64,000 bases of DNA from Halomonas sp. 1513 (GTDB lineage Bacteria > Pseudomonadota > Gammaproteobacteria > Pseudomonadales > Halomonadaceae): assembly GCA_001971685.1 (NCBI GenBank), contig CP019326.1:558001-622000 (forward strand), given 5' to 3'. Made by a program: the position numbers and the translations under genes. The notes below the pieces were generated by a model. It was given only the letters and a program-made list of their open reading frames with translations, searched no databases and was not told where the DNA came from. Below are positions 59,483-63,360 of this stretch, one piece after another (positions within the stretch are counted from its first letter, which is position 1; every line of letters begins with the position of its first letter).

Positions 59483-59668
59483 GCAATCTGTTACCTAGTC
59501 TTGTGTACTGGGCTAAGGTCGCCGAGATGGCCACATATAGCGATAAGCAATTAATACAGGGAGTGTCGAAGGCGGGCATGCAGAGCCATCAGACCATGCC
59601 CACCGGATCCTAGCTGCCGCGTGCAGCGATGCCTTTCAAAATAAAAACAGTACGCAGGGAGAGTGACC

Positions 59669-61045
59669 ATGGAGCGTCCCGATTTCGCCAAACGTGGTGA
59701 TCCAGCCAGGCTGATTCCCGTCGTTGCCGATACCAATCGTGAACAACGTGCGGCCTCGGTACTGCTCGCCGCGCTGCGAGGAGTACATGAGTTCCGGCAG
59801 CAGATGCTTCTTTCACTGGGAGTCCGCGTTGGTAGCCGGGCGGTGTTGGGTGCCTGGACGGAGATCGTGTTGGAAGCCGATCCGGGTGTAGCCAAGAGCG
59901 ACCGCCCAGATGGTCTTATTGTGCTGCAGACCGGTCGCAAGACATGGAGTGCCCTAGTAGAAGCCAAAATTGGCAATGCTGACATTGGCGAGGAGCAGCT
60001 CAAGCAATATCTTCAGCAGGCCAAGAAGCACAAGGTTGATGCGGTCATTACCATCACCAACCAGTTCGTCGCGATACCCTCACATCATCCGGTGAAGGTG
60101 CCAAAATCGATGCTCAAGGGCGTCGAGCTCTATCATTGGTCCTGGATGTATGCGGTGACTCAGGCGACGCTGCTGCTGGAGTCTGGCGAGATCACTTCGC
60201 CCGATCAGCGCTTTATGCTGGAGGAGGTGCTGCGCTACCTCGGCCATGAATCCAGCGGCATCTCTCGTTTCGATAGCATGAACCGCGAGTGGAAGGAGGT
60301 GGTTGGCAAGGTCAAGAGTGGCGCCGTACTGGGCAAGAATACTGAGGAAGTGGAGAACACCGTCTCTAGCTGGCATCAGGAGCAGCGCGACCTATGCCTG
60401 GTAATGAGCCGCAAGCTGGGGCGGCCCGTCAAGCTAAAGCTGGCCCGTGCCCACCGCACCGATCCGGTCAAACGCCTCAAGGACGACTGCGAAGCCCTGG
60501 CCAAGGACAAGGTACTGAGTTGCTGTCTGGAAGTGCCGGACGCCGCTGCCGACTTGGAGGTTACTGCCGATCTCACCAAGCGCACCATCGTTTGTTCAAT
60601 GCGTGTGGTGGCACCGCAGGACAAGAAGCGCAGTACTGCTCGCGTCAACTGGCTAGCCCGGCAGCTAACAAAGGCAGAGCCCGACAGTATGTACATCAAG
60701 GCCGTCCGTCCCGGCCGCGCCGAGGAGACTCAGGCCACTCTTGCCCAAGTAATTGAAGACGCTGCTGCGCTGGATTCTCCAGCGACCACGGTCGTTCCGA
60801 GTGCCTTTGAGGTGTTCTATATGGCCGACCTCGGCCATCGCTTTGCGGGCAACAAGATCTTCATCGAAGAACTGGAAAAGGCAGTGCCGCATTTTTACCA
60901 GCAGGTTGGGCAGCGGCTCAGGGCGTGGGTAGCTCCGCCGCCGAAGCTTCATCGGCGCGATCCGGCCGAGGGAAAGAGTGATGCTGACAAGGATGATATG
61001 GAGCAGCGGAAAAGCGATACGGAAGGGTGGGATGCGGCTGAGTAG
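59669..61045 (+). CDS. Uncharacterised protein with PD-(D/E)XK-nuclease-like N-terminal region
   Basis: 458 aa, no recognised named family. The segment from D81 to E98-A-K100 (DGLIVLQTG ... ALVEAKIG), followed by EEQLKQYLQQAKKHKVDAVITITNQF, has the order of a PD-(D/E)XK nuclease core: acidic strand, ExK strand, helix, hydrophobic strand. The middle (~200-330) is helical and charged and contains GRPVKLKLARAHRTDPVKRLKDDCEAL. The C-terminus is polar and highly charged. RBS AGGGAG before the ATG at 59669. GC is lower than in the flanking housekeeping genes. It lies between guaA and the TIR-like cassette, so a defence-related nuclease is plausible but not shown. Confidence 0.7.
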   Translation: MERPDFAKRGDPARLIPVVADTNREQRAASVLLAALRGVHEFRQQMLLSLGVRVGSRAVLGAWTEIVLEADPGVAKSDRPDGLIVLQTGRKTWSALVEAKIGNADIGEEQLKQYLQQAKKHKVDAVITITNQFVAIPSHHPVKVPKSMLKGVELYHWSWMYAVTQATLLLESGEITSPDQRFMLEEVLRYLGHESSGISRFDSMNREWKEVVGKVKSGAVLGKNTEEVENTVSSWHQEQRDLCLVMSRKLGRPVKLKLARAHRTDPVKRLKDDCEALAKDKVLSCCLEVPDAAADLEVTADLTKRTIVCSMRVVAPQDKKRSTARVNWLARQLTKAEPDSMYIKAVRPGRAEETQATLAQVIEDAAALDSPATTVVPSAFEVFYMADLGHRFAGNKIFIEELEKAVPHFYQQVGQRLRAWVAPPPKLHRRDPAEGKSDADKDDMEQRKSDTEGWDAAE

Positions 61046-61309
61046 CATGCACACCATCTTTAGCGAGATTGGTAGCTCTCCCGGGTGGCCTTCAGTATGC
61101 GTAGCTGTCCCGATGACTGTGGGTGGAGGCACCTACAAACAACGAATTGCGGAGACAGCCTTGGCTTGTTGGGCATCGCAGTATTGGCATTTGCATAGGT
61201 GCATAGGATTGAGAAAAAGGCAGAAATCGACCCGAAGCGGCCATGCTGGCAAAGGCCACAGGCACTCTGCATAACACAACTGTTAGTTTCTCAATGGCAT
61301 GAGGAATCA
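61046..61309. other. Intergenic region; possible degenerate attC/attI ending at 61288
   Basis: 264 nt. It ends with ACAACTGTTAGTT, where GTTAGTT (61282-61288) could be an integron crossover core; CACAACTGTTAG resembles the AAACAAAGTTAG end of attI1. A weakly complementary 5' arm (ACAACGAATTGCGGAG, from ~61138) could make this an attC of ~150 nt. Neither is secure. No integrase gene is present. Confidence 0.3.
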
Positions 61310-62155
61310 ATGAATAGAAAACCGAGAATATTTATAGGTTCTTCTTCGGAAAGTCTTGACGTGGCTGATGCTGTGAACCTCAATCTAGATCATAAGGCCG
61401 AAGTTACTATTTGGAGAAATGGAACCTTTGATCTTTCGAGCAATACCATTGATGCTTTGACAAAAAAAGCTAAGGCAGTGGATTTTTCACTGTTTATTTT
61501 CTCTCCGGATGATATTGCTATAATCCGAAGTAAACAAAAAGCCATAGTTCGTGATAATGTGCTTTTTGAGCTTGGCTTATTCATCGGTGCACTCGGAAAA
61601 GAAAGATGCTTTATTCTAAAGCCGAGAGGAGTTGATCTGCACTTTCCGACGGATCTTCTAGGTGTAACGCCAGCTGATTACGAATCAAACAGATCGGATG
61701 GTGATCTAGCGTCTTCGGTAAATCACGCTTGCGTGCTTATGAAACAGCAAATGGAAAAATTACGTACCGTAGAGCATGTGTCCACTGGTGCCGCACCCCC
61801 AAAGATCAATATCGAAGCTGCCAAGATCAAAGATTTCGACTATTTGGTCCTTGCTCAGCTTTTGGGTACGGCAACATCAGACCCGGAGGGACACATGCTT
61901 TTCCAGCTGAAAAACAACCTGAATGAGCAATCCTATAAAGTGGATTTGGCTATAATTCGTTTGGAGCGAGTTGGTTATATTGAAAAGCGAAACGACTCAG
62001 ATATTAACGGTAACGAGTTTTACACCTACAAAATCACGCCTGAAGGAATTGAGCTCCTTTTTGAAAACGAAGAATTGGCTTTCCCTGCTCAAAAATCTCA
62101 ACTAGCCTTGCCAAGGAAAGCTGAGGACTATTTCGATGACGACATTCCTTTCTAG
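61310..62155 (+). CDS. TIR-like domain protein (Cap12/Pycsar-type TIR) with C-terminal winged helix
   Basis: 281 aa. Residues 5-150 match the TIR-like 'predicted nucleotide-binding' family found as NADase effectors in CBASS and Pycsar: PRIFIGSSSESLDVADAV, then TIWRNGTFDLSSNTIDAL, DFSLFIFSPDD, RDNVLFELGLFIGALG (putative catalytic E87) and LLGVTPADYE. The C-terminal part (~175-265) looks like a winged helix-turn-helix (DYLVLAQLLG ... YKVDLAIIRLERVGYIEKR ... YKITPEGIELL) and could sense nucleic acid or a nucleotide. ATG at 61310 with GAGGAA 9 nt upstream. AT-rich codons contrast with all housekeeping genes. Likely abortive-infection effector; no cyclase is adjacent, so the trigger is unknown. 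Confidence 0.75.
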   Translation: MNRKPRIFIGSSSESLDVADAVNLNLDHKAEVTIWRNGTFDLSSNTIDALTKKAKAVDFSLFIFSPDDIAIIRSKQKAIVRDNVLFELGLFIGALGKERCFILKPRGVDLHFPTDLLGVTPADYESNRSDGDLASSVNHACVLMKQQMEKLRTVEHVSTGAAPPKINIEAAKIKDFDYLVLAQLLGTATSDPEGHMLFQLKNNLNEQSYKVDLAIIRLERVGYIEKRNDSDINGNEFYTYKITPEGIELLFENEELAFPAQKSQLALPRKAEDYFDDDIPF

Positions 62156-62161
62156 GAAAAA

Positions 62162-62268
62162 TGCTAACAATCACAATCACAATCACAATCACAATCACAA
62201 GCAGGGCAACGGCTCCTGCGTTTCGCTTCGCCTGCACCACAAAACCTCGCCGGTGGTGGGCGTTATAT
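62162..62268 (+). other. attC-like recombination site 1
   Basis: 107 bp. It begins TGCTAACAA and ends GGTGGGCGTTATAT, as integron attC sites do (compare the TAACAA...GGGCGTTA ends of the Vibrio cholerae VCR). The interior holds GCAGG...CCTGC pairing around GCGTTTCGCTTCGC. It starts 6 nt after the TIR-like stop codon, and the next gene starts 17 nt after it. The 5' arm is occupied by a hexanucleotide repeat, so the outer stem is imperfect. Confidence 0.6.
62167..62200 (+). repeat. Hexanucleotide microsatellite (ACAATC)5.7
   Basis: Five perfect tandem copies of ACAATC plus ACAA, inside the 5' arm of attC1. Such repeats can change length by slippage. Here that would alter the fold of the attC site or the distance between the two genes rather than a reading frame. 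Confidence 0.95.
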
Positions 62269-62284
62269 CTAAGGAGACACCCTG

Positions 62285-63049
62285 ATGCCTTCGCGTATCT
62301 CTGGACAAGAATTAATCCAGCTTAAGGACGCTATTGTCCAAGATTTCGATTCTTCAAATTGGCGCGAGCTTGGTGCCCTCACCAATATGATTGATGAGGT
62401 CGATAGGCATCCCCGATTGCTGCGAAGCCTCTCTTTTGGCGATCCAGATTATGATGGCTTGGCATTGACCTTTCTGCGAAAAATGATAGGTCAGGAAGAT
62501 GAGAATCTTGACATTGCCCTGAAATATATTCACAAAACATGTGGCGACGCTGGAGAAAACGTTTCTAGTGAAGTAGCACAAGGTCGAAAAATTGTTTTCT
62601 CTCCGACTATCTTCGATGTTCCCAGCGATCCTGTCGATACAAATCTGATCGCCGTCATGATGCCCTTTGACGCATCAATGAACGGAGTGAATATCGCTAT
62701 TGTGGCGGCTGCCCAGCAAGCAGGTTTCGAGTGCCAAAGAGCAGACAACATCTGGGATCATACAACCGTCATCCAAGATGTGTTTTCGCTTATTTTCAAG
62801 TCCTACATCGTAGTGTGCGACTTTACAGGAAAGAATCCTAACGTGTTTTACGAGGCTGGTATTGCACATGCTTTGGGCAAGCATGTCGTTCCAATTACAC
62901 AGTCAGAGCAGGATGTGCCGTTTGACTTAAGGCACCATCGTTTCGCCAAATATTTGAACAACGGTGAAGGCTTGGAGAGGTTGAAAGAGGATTTGGTCAG
63001 TCGTTTTTCCACGTTGGCTAAAAATCGACCTAATTCAGGCTGGATATAA
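62285..63049 (+). CDS. Two-domain putative defence effector: death-fold-like N-terminus + TIR/deoxyribosyltransferase-like C-terminus
   Basis: 254 aa. Residues ~5-88 resemble the small helical effector-associated (death-like) domains that recruit bacterial immune proteins: ISGQELIQLKDAIVQDF, then HPRLLRSLSFGDPDYDGLAL (FGDPDY at 51-56). Residues ~118-245 belong to the nucleoside 2-deoxyribosyltransferase/TIR-like Rossmann group: LIAVMMPFD, AAQQAGFECQRAD, IVVCDFTGKNPNVFYEAGIA (D179, E190), PFDLRHHRF. E190 is the likely catalytic acid for N-glycosidic cleavage of a nucleotide. RBS AAGGAG. The stop codon lies inside the attC2 core. A partner with a matching death-like domain is not in the window. 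Confidence 0.7.
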   Translation: MPSRISGQELIQLKDAIVQDFDSSNWRELGALTNMIDEVDRHPRLLRSLSFGDPDYDGLALTFLRKMIGQEDENLDIALKYIHKTCGDAGENVSSEVAQGRKIVFSPTIFDVPSDPVDTNLIAVMMPFDASMNGVNIAIVAAAQQAGFECQRADNIWDHTTVIQDVFSLIFKSYIVVCDFTGKNPNVFYEAGIAHALGKHVVPITQSEQDVPFDLRHHRFAKYLNNGEGLERLKEDLVSRFSTLAKNRPNSGWI

Positions 63050-63144
63050 CAGGCGAGGCACAGCGATGCCATTTTTAATAGCCGCTCATGGCCGCAATCG
63101 GCTGTCAATTGCCTTGGCTCCGTCATCCCTCGGCGACGTTATTG
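63044..63144 (+). other. attC-like recombination site 2
   Basis: 101 bp from ATATAAC (63044-63050) to GTTATTG (63138-63144). Inner arms are imperfectly complementary (CGAGG/CCTCG; AGCCG/CGGCT around a loop; ATT..TA/CAAT). The stop codon TAA of the upstream gene is part of the first core, a compact arrangement seen in integron cassettes. ATATAAC is the exact complement of GTTATAT at the left end of the same cassette. Confidence 0.55.
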
Positions 63145-63360
63145 GCGATATAACACAATATAACCAAAATACTCCCCATACTGCTCGTACAGCTCGATCT
63201 CCTGCTGATGCTCCTCGACGATGTCCCGTGCGGCGGGGCTCTTGTCATGGGCCTTGAGGAAGGCCCGGAAGAGCTGGTGGAGCCCCTGGCGCCAGCCTTC
63301 AAGCGTCTTGAACTGAGGACGTAAGCCAAAGACGACACTGCTATGTAAGACTTTGTCCAC
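63139..63360 (-). CDS. Hypothetical 73-residue protein, antisense, ending in attC2
   Basis: GTG start, 73 aa, helical and charged (KTLEGWRQGLHQLFRAFLKAH, IVEEHQQEIELYEQYGEYFGYI). Composition is more host-like than the two cassette genes. Its TAA stop is the complement of the TTA in the right core of attC2. No family is recognised and there is no clear RBS. It may be a reverse-oriented gene, a remnant of a longer chromosomal gene cut by cassette insertion, or chance. Confidence 0.3.
   Translation of the reverse strand: MDKVLHSSVVFGLRPQFKTLEGWRQGLHQLFRAFLKAHDKSPAARDIVEEHQQEIELYEQYGEYFGYIVLYRQ

Follow-up and report, generated by a model that had tools for sequence, protein, structure and literature searches.

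The stretch of DNA analysed here (the window, 64 kb in all) ends in two single-gene cassettes of a chromosomal integron remnant, which occupy positions 61283-62262 and 62263-63138 of the forward strand and can be read directly from the sequence. Cassette 1 (start 61283, G^TTAGTTT) has G^TT boundaries at both ends and carries gene 1 (281 aa, 61310..62155, + strand), which encodes a TIR domain, a winged-helix-like domain and a disordered tail resembling the C-terminal tip of SSB. Cassette 2 starts at 62263 with TTATATC, a start (TTATATCTAAGGAG) common to the loci L016, L017 and L018, and carries gene 2 (254 aa, 62285..63049, + strand), in which an AbiJ-NTD5 domain is joined to a nucleoside-deoxyribosyltransferase (NDT)/TIR-like domain. 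An earlier note on this DNA had described two single-gene units closed by attC-like sites, and direct reading confirms it. The AT-rich genes that it placed in GC-rich surroundings are equally evident: the GC content is 0.417 for gene 1 and 0.454 for gene 2, vs 0.659 for the window. None of 610 tiles of 800 bp (starts 1-60,901 of the window, the last few extending into cassette 1) is as low in GC as either gene.

attC sites, relic attI and missing integrase

The first recombination site, attC1 (62162..62269, + strand), runs from R'' (TGCTAAC at 62162, adjoined by five AATCAC repeats) through to GTTATATC, which ends at 62269; its end reads GGGCGTTAT, as the earlier note had it. The diverged attC2 (63044..63145, + strand) begins with ATATAAC at 63044 and ends in GACGTTATTGG at 63145. 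Its R'' is complementary to the TTATAT with which cassette 2 starts, also as claimed. Covariance models, for which the tool itself calls the E-values rough, took the place of a home-made attC motif finder; the latter returned five above-threshold sites in six stretches, with shuffles scoring alike and clear sites missed, and was dropped. With the model R2, built on 25 sites and trained without own-genome sequence, attC1 was the sole match at E ≤ 10 in the 64 kb under default filters (28.6 bits, E 1.1e-5, match 62186-62269). The 11-site model R1 gave three matches in the 64 kb, led by attC1 (24.7 bits, E 2.9e-4) and attC2 (16.0 bits, E 0.084), the third lying elsewhere on the opposite strand (14.8 bits, E 0.19). 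When R2 was run on 3 kb with the filters off, attC2 scored 12.6 bits (E 0.031).

By these bit scores and E-values attC1 stands above chance as a match of sequence and structure, but attC2 alone does not. The covariance search thus bears out the first of the two sites and leaves the second a marginal candidate (12.6-16 bits), backed by gene-2 relatives that are cassettes. Rfam scans of the window gave no attC match, and Rfam may hold no attC family. Free folding of the bottom strand did not give the attC hairpin expected in the earlier note for either site (z -1.99 for attC1, +0.53 for attC2); because of this departure from the expected form, both sites may no longer recombine.

The array extends past the window end, with a third attC (27.1 bits) about 2.5 kb beyond, at genome positions 624484-624543 (L109 7484-7543). 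The locus therefore holds at least two neighbouring attC sites, attC1 and the third site (28.6 and 27.1 bits), 4.2 kb apart with the weak attC2 between them. An integron integrase is absent from the locus by the TIGR02249 profile, which also found none over the cut-off in the own genome. The best own-genome match to an integron integrase is an N-terminal fragment at 916.7 kb, about 297 kb away, which aligns to residues 2-114 of 315 and scores 117.6 bits, under the cut-off. In several relatives intI is partial, broken or absent. The term integrase-less integron cassettes, used in the earlier note, is therefore apt, with this fragment as the best match and with gene-2 relatives that are themselves cassettes.

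Ahead of cassette 1 lies a relic attI core, GCATAACACAACTG^TT (61269..61284, + strand), which agrees in 14 of 16 bases with a site in the same-genus genome G003 (L112 4040-4055). The same left flank opens in G003 into different cassettes, and it is because G003 carries other cassettes at that place that the relic can be recognised as attI. The attI of G003 is fuller; about 150 bp of its site, palindrome included, are missing here. The arrangement of palindrome plus attI also precedes an intact intI in L114 and L115. An alternative is that an integrase acting in trans inserted the cassettes singly at a non-integron secondary site of the attG type, and that there was never an integron here. PMC12444791, from which the term attG is taken, mentions that cassettes insert at such sites in E. 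coli, and the variable region contains no intI match. The 14 of 16 bases shared with a site whose arrangement elsewhere precedes intact intI argue against it, however, and we consider this origin improbable. No second guaA 3' end, as would mark the end of an island, was found in the own stretch (L109).

A complete integron has intI, attI and cassettes together; at this locus intI is absent and attI is a relic. The locus is best read as the front end of a chromosomal integron in decay: a CALIN (cluster of attC sites lacking an integrase) preceded by a relic attI, with the array continuing past the window. The relic attI and the continuing array go beyond what the earlier note described, as does the SSB-like tail of gene 1.

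Domains and relatives of the two genes

The N-terminal part of the gene 2 protein (residues 4-93) belongs to AbiJ-NTD5 (PF18865, 107.4 bits, E 3.5e-31). Its C-terminal part matches a PADLOC TIR effector (E 1.2e-9), and in Foldseek searches NDT folds come first and TIR folds next. The best structure matches are modest for both proteins of the locus, with TM-scores by query length of about 0.40. Gene-2 relatives at 90-91% identity are found in other genera, in three genomes as cassettes with the same start. Close relatives in Halomonas sp. EAR18 and Halovibrio have attC on either side, and one in Salinicola is flanked by an attC on one side and by an end of attI type on the other. Among the other genomes of the family that have a gene-2 relative, an attC match adjoins it in six of eight. 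The pairing of AbiJ-NTD5 with TIR appears in Table 2 of PMC3710099, and so the suggestion in the earlier note that the domain pairing of gene 2 is little described does not stand. The exact pairing is less well covered if the C-terminal domain is called NDT-like, since the same paper, in the part consulted, gives deoxyribosyltransferase as a partner of AbiJ-NTD1.

Gene 1 falls in PF10137 (115.9 bits, E 1.3e-33, gathering score 24.7) and has the conserved glutamate of that family. Its TIR domain (residues 6-151) matches the Cap12 and PycTIR structures by sequence and fold. E87 is invariant among 30 sequences and aligns with the glutamate of the Cap12 FEFG motif, which we take to be catalytic. 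The TIR domain is followed by a winged-helix-like domain (residues 175-257), which in the predicted model resembles MarR/PadR proteins.

Cap12 and PycTIR are effectors of CBASS and Pycsar, and gene 1 might accordingly be read as a TIR effector responding to a cyclic nucleotide produced from another part of the genome, or else as a transcription regulator. The closeness of its TIR domain to Cap12/PycTIR speaks for the former, and the MarR/PadR-like winged helix for the latter, as does the name 'predicted transcriptional regulator' borne by some of its relatives. However, Pfam finds no STING or cNMP-binding domain in gene 1 and none is apparent in the model, in which the winged helix takes the place of a cyclic-nucleotide sensor. 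No adjacent cyclase was recognised by eye in the neighbouring ORFs, nor by Pfam in four neighbours. The scores against NCBIfam Cap12 (122.7 and 91.4 bits) are far under the cut-off of 450. We give both versions of this reading little credence.

In genome searches gene 1 was found in its own genome only, both among 146 relatives (E ≤ 1e-30) and among 369 genomes of the class (E ≤ 1e-40). None of 24 viral or plasmid loci with a gene-1 relative has an attC beside it. These loci, 21 of them viral and the others from 3 of 32 plasmid records, hold relatives of at most 54% identity; closer ones, with those of 80% identity or more coming from metagenome contigs, are known as proteins only. The expectation that the same genes lie beside attC elsewhere thus holds for gene 2 but not for gene 1, and gene 1 is therefore taken to be a cassette on the strength of its local attC and attI, none of the 24 loci of its relatives adjoining an attC.

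Both genes could be silent cargo, functionless in the host, with decayed attC sites and a lost cassette promoter. The attI region is deleted down to its final bases, and upstream of gene 1 there is no promoter-like site, the count of such sites in the region being no higher than in shuffles. Set against this, both reading frames are intact, and members of the gene-2 family can be aligned from end to end, many columns being invariant. On balance we think silence somewhat unlikely, and our reading presumes that both genes are expressed. As for the term antiphage-type effectors in the earlier note, it holds as a statement of kinship, both proteins being TIR or TIR-like effectors of defence type. 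RT_UG36, SIR2 and AbiV genes are present in two further clusters of cassettes in this genome.

The C-terminal tail of gene 1

The last 20 codons of gene 1 (62093..62152, + strand) encode a disordered tail (pLDDT < 50 at residues 262-281) that ends in FDDDIPF, vs FDDEIPF at the C-terminal end of the host SSB. The tail thus has the make-up of an SSB C-terminal tip, with an acidic run followed by I/L/V-P-F at the extreme C-terminus and a disordered linker before it. The strict form occurs in 63 of the 120 gene-1 homologues listed, and 31 of the 120 fail even a loose test; these counts, like the others from such lists, are not independent, the lists being of kin. Among the gene-1 relatives the last six positions carry 3.35, 3.23, 1.33, 1.85, 1.63 and 1.15 bits of information, against a background of about 0.3-0.6 bits at positions 8-24 from the end. 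When the relatives are clustered at 60%, 11 of 18 clusters have a tailed representative. Of the 12 relatives from viruses or plasmids that are matched as far as the C-terminal part, five have the strict tail, two a near variant and five neither.

A second TIR family (TIR_2) ends in the same way. It has another N-terminal domain, and BLAST at E ≤ 10 did not match its query to gene 1. The strict tail is present in 89 of the 120 members listed; by representatives it is found in one of two clusters at 60% and in 35 of 42 at 70%. The strict tail is absent from all 120 gene-2 relatives and from the matched gene at all 80 gene-2 loci. Another gene-2-like gene, in L067, does carry an SSB-like tail. 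Over the loci studied, which are defence-rich by design, 12 of 1,319 distinct ORFs of at least 150 aa end with the motif. These are the host SSB, two near-identical phage proteins (the one scanned has DUF3127), gene 1 with five relatives, and three SduA/TIR_2/TIR-like proteins. Sharing of the tail by SduA (Shedu) nucleases was considered and dropped, since of five drawn from 29 plasmid relatives one had a near motif (EEDTPF, not strict). A phmmer search with the 20-residue tail returned no PDB chain, a negative of little weight given the shortness of the query.

The tail may instead serve in autoinhibition or oligomerisation, or mark the protein for degradation, and have no more than a resemblance to the SSB tip. 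Its absence from many relatives (the 31 of 120 listed and the 5 of 12 viral or plasmid ones) speaks for such a reading. It is harder to square with the full SSB pattern (acidic run, I/L/V, P, terminal F) recurring behind a variable linker in two families of TIR proteins with no BLAST match between their representatives, or with the 12 ORFs of the defence-rich sample that end with the motif, the host SSB among them. We think it unlikely, and favour SSB-like docking.

Proposed action and comparison with known systems

We propose, with a probability of roughly 60%, that the locus is a decayed integron head with two defence-type effector cassettes, in which the tail of gene 1 docks a TIR effector on SSB partners and gene 2 combines a sensor with an enzyme. 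In gene 1, a TIR of the PF10137 (Cap12/PycTIR) type, the winged helix and the flexible SSB-tip-like tail would replace the cyclic-nucleotide sensor. Together they would hold the protein at sites of replication or repair through proteins that normally bind SSB. RecO, PriA and chi are described as bound by the acidic tip of SSB alone in the part of PMC7145534 consulted. Once a phage took over these sites, the TIR domain would start to cleave NAD+ and so abort the infection. In gene 2, the AbiJ-NTD5 domain may recognise a phage component and restrain the TIR-like/NDT enzyme.

A wider and more tentative proposal, to which we give less than even odds, is that there is a class of stand-alone TIR effectors, from at least two TIR families (PF10137 with winged helix, and TIR_2), that carries a copy of the SSB tip and docks on RecO, PriA, polymerase chi and the like. 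Disturbance of the SSB hub by a phage would trigger an NAD-cleaving abortive response, and the member in the window would be one carried as an integron cassette. The two tailed families have no detectable sequence similarity to each other.

To our knowledge, the means by which stand-alone TIR proteins of bacteria detect an infection are for the most part an open question. The SSB-like tail on TIR effectors is the more useful lead from this locus: six residues with known partner proteins can be tested directly. Should the proposal be true, the partners of SSB would constitute a guarded hub, and the tail would offer a means of sorting many TIR genes that still lack a name. Among open papers, searched by title and start of abstract, none was found that joins an SSB-like tail with a TIR effector, a weak result with subscription papers mostly outside the search; the term 'SSB' is absent from the TIR preprints checked.

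Integron defence cassettes and the pairing of AbiJ-NTD5 with TIR are already described. The Vibrio integron cassettes (Darracq et al., 2025; Getz et al., both as reviewed in PMC12409362, consulted in part) likewise carry small stand-alone defence-type genes, whereas the present ones are in Halomonadaceae and comprise two putative defence genes known from sequence; what the locus contributes here is examples from Halomonadaceae in which a relic attI is present. As in a CALIN or sedentary chromosomal integron, the single-gene cassettes are bounded by attC, share one orientation and lie at a locus without intI, but this locus keeps a recognisable relic attI and a same-genus genome has other cassettes there. 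Gene 2 has the domain order of the AbiJ-NTD5-TIR fusion in Table 2 of PMC3710099 (consulted in part); it differs in a C-terminal fold nearest to NDT and in being carried as an integron cassette. Gene 1 shares its TIR domain with Cap12/PycTIR of CBASS and Pycsar by sequence and fold, but has neither a STING/cyclic-nucleotide domain nor a recognised cyclase nearby. Its terminal acidic run and IPF behind a disordered linker are those of the SSB C-terminus (partners RecO, PriA and chi), joined here to a TIR effector and not to an ssDNA-binding domain. This combination of a Cap12/PycTIR-type TIR, a predicted winged helix and an SSB-tip-like tail is what is new, and it suggests a putative link between disturbance of DNA replication and a cell-killing enzyme.

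Cassettes, attC sites and the relic attI

The window holds two single-gene cassettes, present as the earlier note had described them from direct reading of the sequence. Cassette 1 (61283-62262) carries gene 1 (61310-62155, + strand) and cassette 2 (62263-63138) carries gene 2 (62285-63049, + strand), each with a G^TT boundary and an attC-like site at its close (attC1, 62162-62269; attC2, 63044-63145). Both genes are AT-rich in a GC-rich setting, as had also been noted (GC 0.417 and 0.454, respectively, vs. 0.659). The attC sites were searched with two home-built covariance models, whose E-values are rough according to the tool itself: R1, trained on 11 attC sites from other genomes (L015-L018, and L112 of the same-genus genome G003), and R2, trained on 25 matches, again without own-genome sequence. 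R1 gave three matches in the 64 kb window: attC1 (24.7 bits, E 2.9e-4), attC2 (16.0 bits, E 0.084) and an unrelated place (14.8 bits). attC1 was the sole R2 match in the 64 kb window (28.6 bits, E 1.1e-5); attC2 reached 12.6 bits (E 0.031) with R2 in 3 kb only, with filters off. By these scores attC1 exceeds chance, whereas attC2 does not by itself and draws its support from its relatives. Across 84 sources R1 gave 29 matches at E<=1, 11 of them training sites, and all 18 others share the strand of the gene that recruited the locus (for two in L109, the own-genome stretch running past the window end, the strand of the cassettes).

The left flank consists of guaA and then a 460-aa ORF, with 91% identity in G003 up to window position 61188; an additional 46-bp match to G003 reaches about 61254. 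In G003 (L112) the flank is followed by a palindrome (TTGAACG..CGTTCAA), by ACATAATACAACTG^TT as an attI-like end and by three different attC sites. Window 61269-61284 reads GCATAACACAACTG^TT, with 14 of 16 bases the same as in G003, and about 150 bp are missing before this end relative to G003. The same arrangement of palindrome and attI precedes intact intI genes in L114 (Halomonas sp. EAR18) and L115 (genome G004). Given the G003-like end and this shared arrangement, the array starts at a relic attI. The array continues beyond the window, where a third attC (L109 7484-7543, 27.1 bits) and a weak fourth (L109 6553-6613, 12.3 bits) are found; over 39 bp, the end of the third site together with the sequence after it is 87% identical to the end of the last G003 attC and what lies beyond. 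The best name for the locus is a CALIN with a relic attI.

The palindrome is conserved in Halomonadaceae integrons, where it separates intI from attI, and also stands before cassettes without an adjoining intI (sites at L112 3999-4020, L017 5926-5947, L114 2612, L115 2588, L116 2211 and L121 1328). Directly 5' of the relic attI, window 61220-61265 is a short REP-like sequence that recurs across many genomes of Halomonadaceae. The homologue of the 460-aa ORF (window 59663-61045) in genome G002 (L101) is flanked by guaA 3' ends (1-214 and 1847-1937), as if it were a small island at guaA. A guaA 3' end also lies right behind the homologue in L102 (1294-1467) and L105 (1100-1276), loci that cover that side only.

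Integrases and other cassette clusters

A profile search of the own genome found no intI over the cut-off. The best match, at 117.6 bits, is an N-terminal fragment at 916.7 kb that covers residues 2-114 of 315. Five others score no higher than 84.6 bits and are regarded as different tyrosine recombinases, of a kind that gave matches in all 14 control genomes as well. Among eight related genomes searched at E<=1e-25, three have intI over the cut-off (A. jadensis, EAR18 and G004), three have broken, partial or weaker matches only (G001, G002 and G003, including 304-aa and 312-aa open frames whose first part scores 123 and 125 bits), and matches are absent from two. The own-genome fragment (L111 7680-9956, genome about 916-918 kb) adjoins NERD-like and HNH-like genes, named by eye, and an attC-like end lies behind the HNH-like gene (R2 12.6 bits, E 0.59).

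Two further cassette clusters of the own genome were examined. The 2.84 Mb cluster has four attC matches, two of which enclose a two-gene unit (L165 5474-8355) that would be a defence-type system carried as one integron cassette; one gene codes for an RT_UG36 reverse transcriptase (703 bits in PADLOC), the other for a partner of 324 aa. In the 3.38 Mb cluster, AbiV (257 bits), SIR2 and Ham1-like proteins lie between two attC matches (L166 5149-7400), in what would be more cassettes of defence type. These clusters fit the view that cassettes of this genome hold defence-type genes, but 4/8 proteins scanned from them match PADLOC models (one weakly), and 4/8 match none.

Gene 2 and its relatives

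Gene 2 has an AbiJ_NTD5 domain (residues 4-93) and a C-terminal domain nearest to nucleoside 2'-deoxyribosyltransferase, then TIR, by Foldseek, a modest kinship given the best E of 4e-4. Its motif NPNVFYEAGIAH contains E190, invariant in aligned relatives. The domain pair had been thought little described, which mostly fails: Table 2 of PMC3710099 has AbiJ-NTD5 with TIR, and that source pairs deoxyribosyltransferase with AbiJ-NTD1. The same paper proposes that N-terminal domains of this kind act as sensors of phage components and keep the toxin in check.

Relatives of gene 2 are encoded in 224 stretches of the genome collection, of which the best 80 were fetched. attC at E<=1 (R2) was found in 10 of these 80, one weakly (L028, E 0.12). 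Gene-2-type genes adjoin attC elsewhere too: the 90-91% identical relatives in Halomonas sp. EAR18 and Halovibrio have attC on both sides, and a Salinicola relative has an attI-type end before and attC behind. The Alcanivorax jadensis relative has an altered start and no attC match at the gene itself, only one further upstream. The more distant L020, L081, L082 and L090 have attC 8-37 bp from the matched stretch. Most attC-positive loci served in R2 training; the distant ones were not in R1, which on non-training loci gave E<=0.003 for L020, L081, L083 and L090 and E 0.064 for L082. The remaining 70 of the best 80 lack attC at E<=1 by this gammaproteobacterial model; the family therefore also occurs away from integrons, or in ones that escape this model. 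Within the window's family, 9/275 genomes, own genome included, have a relative, and an attC match adjoins it in 7/9 (short loci; 6/8 without the own genome). The two counts overlap, since G022, G030, G692 and G086 are the genomes of L016, L017, L018 and L081 (identical coordinates).

The SSB-like tail of gene 1

The gene 1 protein (281 aa) matches Pfam PF10137 over residues 6-125. Its fold model (mean pLDDT 74) has an alpha/beta TIR domain to about residue 151, a break (160-169), a winged-helix-like domain (175-257) and a disordered tail (262-281). Cap12 TIR-STING structures top the Foldseek list (TM-score by query length 0.40), followed by TIR, MarR, PadR and origin-recognition proteins. E87 is invariant in 30 aligned relatives and aligns with the FEFG glutamate of Cap12.

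The protein ends in AEDYFDDDIPF and the host's own SSB in SFDDFDDEIPF; PMC5872125 gives the acidic tip of SSB as DDDIPF. Judged by sequence, the gene 1 terminus is this tip. Among the 120 best gene-1 homologues, 63 have the strict tail [DE][DE][ILV]PF and a loose test admits 89; of 120 gene-2 homologues taken as control, none has the strict tail. Tailed representatives number 11/18 at 60% clustering and 21/41 at 70%. Information content is 3.35, 3.23, 1.33, 1.85, 1.63 and 1.15 bits at the last six positions and about 0.3-0.6 at positions 8-24, counted from the end. Twelve viral or plasmid relatives reach the C-terminal part (L132-L140 and L153-L155): five, partly close kin, have the strict tail (L136-L140), two a near variant (L134, L153) and five neither. 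The tail occurs in 0/12 relatives matching the TIR part only (L141-L152).

The loci collected here yield 1,319 distinct ORFs at least 150 aa long, no neutral background because these loci were drawn from around defence-type genes. Twelve of the ORFs have the tail: gene 1 and five relatives, the SSB of the host, a pair of near-identical phage proteins (the one scanned being DUF3127) and three others. These three are an SduA (Shedu) protein, a TIR_2 protein and a gene-2-like protein with a different N-terminus (PADLOC TIR effector, E 1.1e-4). With the TIR_2 protein of L077 as query, 89/120 relatives have strict and 103/120 loose tails; this set is closer kin than the gene-1 set (2 clusters at 60%, 42 at 70% and 84 at 80%, with 1, 35 and 62 tailed representatives). 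The L077 protein was chosen for its tail, so the evidence is conservation in its relatives. At E<=10, BLAST matches it to neither gene 1 nor gene 2; the tail is therefore common to two TIR families whose sequences show no detectable similarity.

In L077 (6001-7146) a gene-2-like TIR/NDT gene is followed directly by the TIR_2 gene. The SduA protein (L036 3317-4558) ends in DNDDIPF, and only one of the five plasmid relatives inspected has a similar end (EEDTPF).

PMC7145534 describes the acidic tip as binding RecO, PriA and chi on its own. In the proposed mechanism, the gene 1 tail would bind such SSB partners, phage replication would disturb this putative binding, and the TIR domain would then cleave NAD+. 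Since the attI region is truncated and no promoter-like site precedes gene 1, expression of the cassette genes is doubtful.

The earlier integron-cassette reading is right in kind and ordinary beside recent work; according to PMC12409362, phage defence can be among the cargo of integron cassettes. What is new is the SSB-like tail, on gene 1 and on another TIR family, well supported as a fact of sequence and putative as a mechanism.
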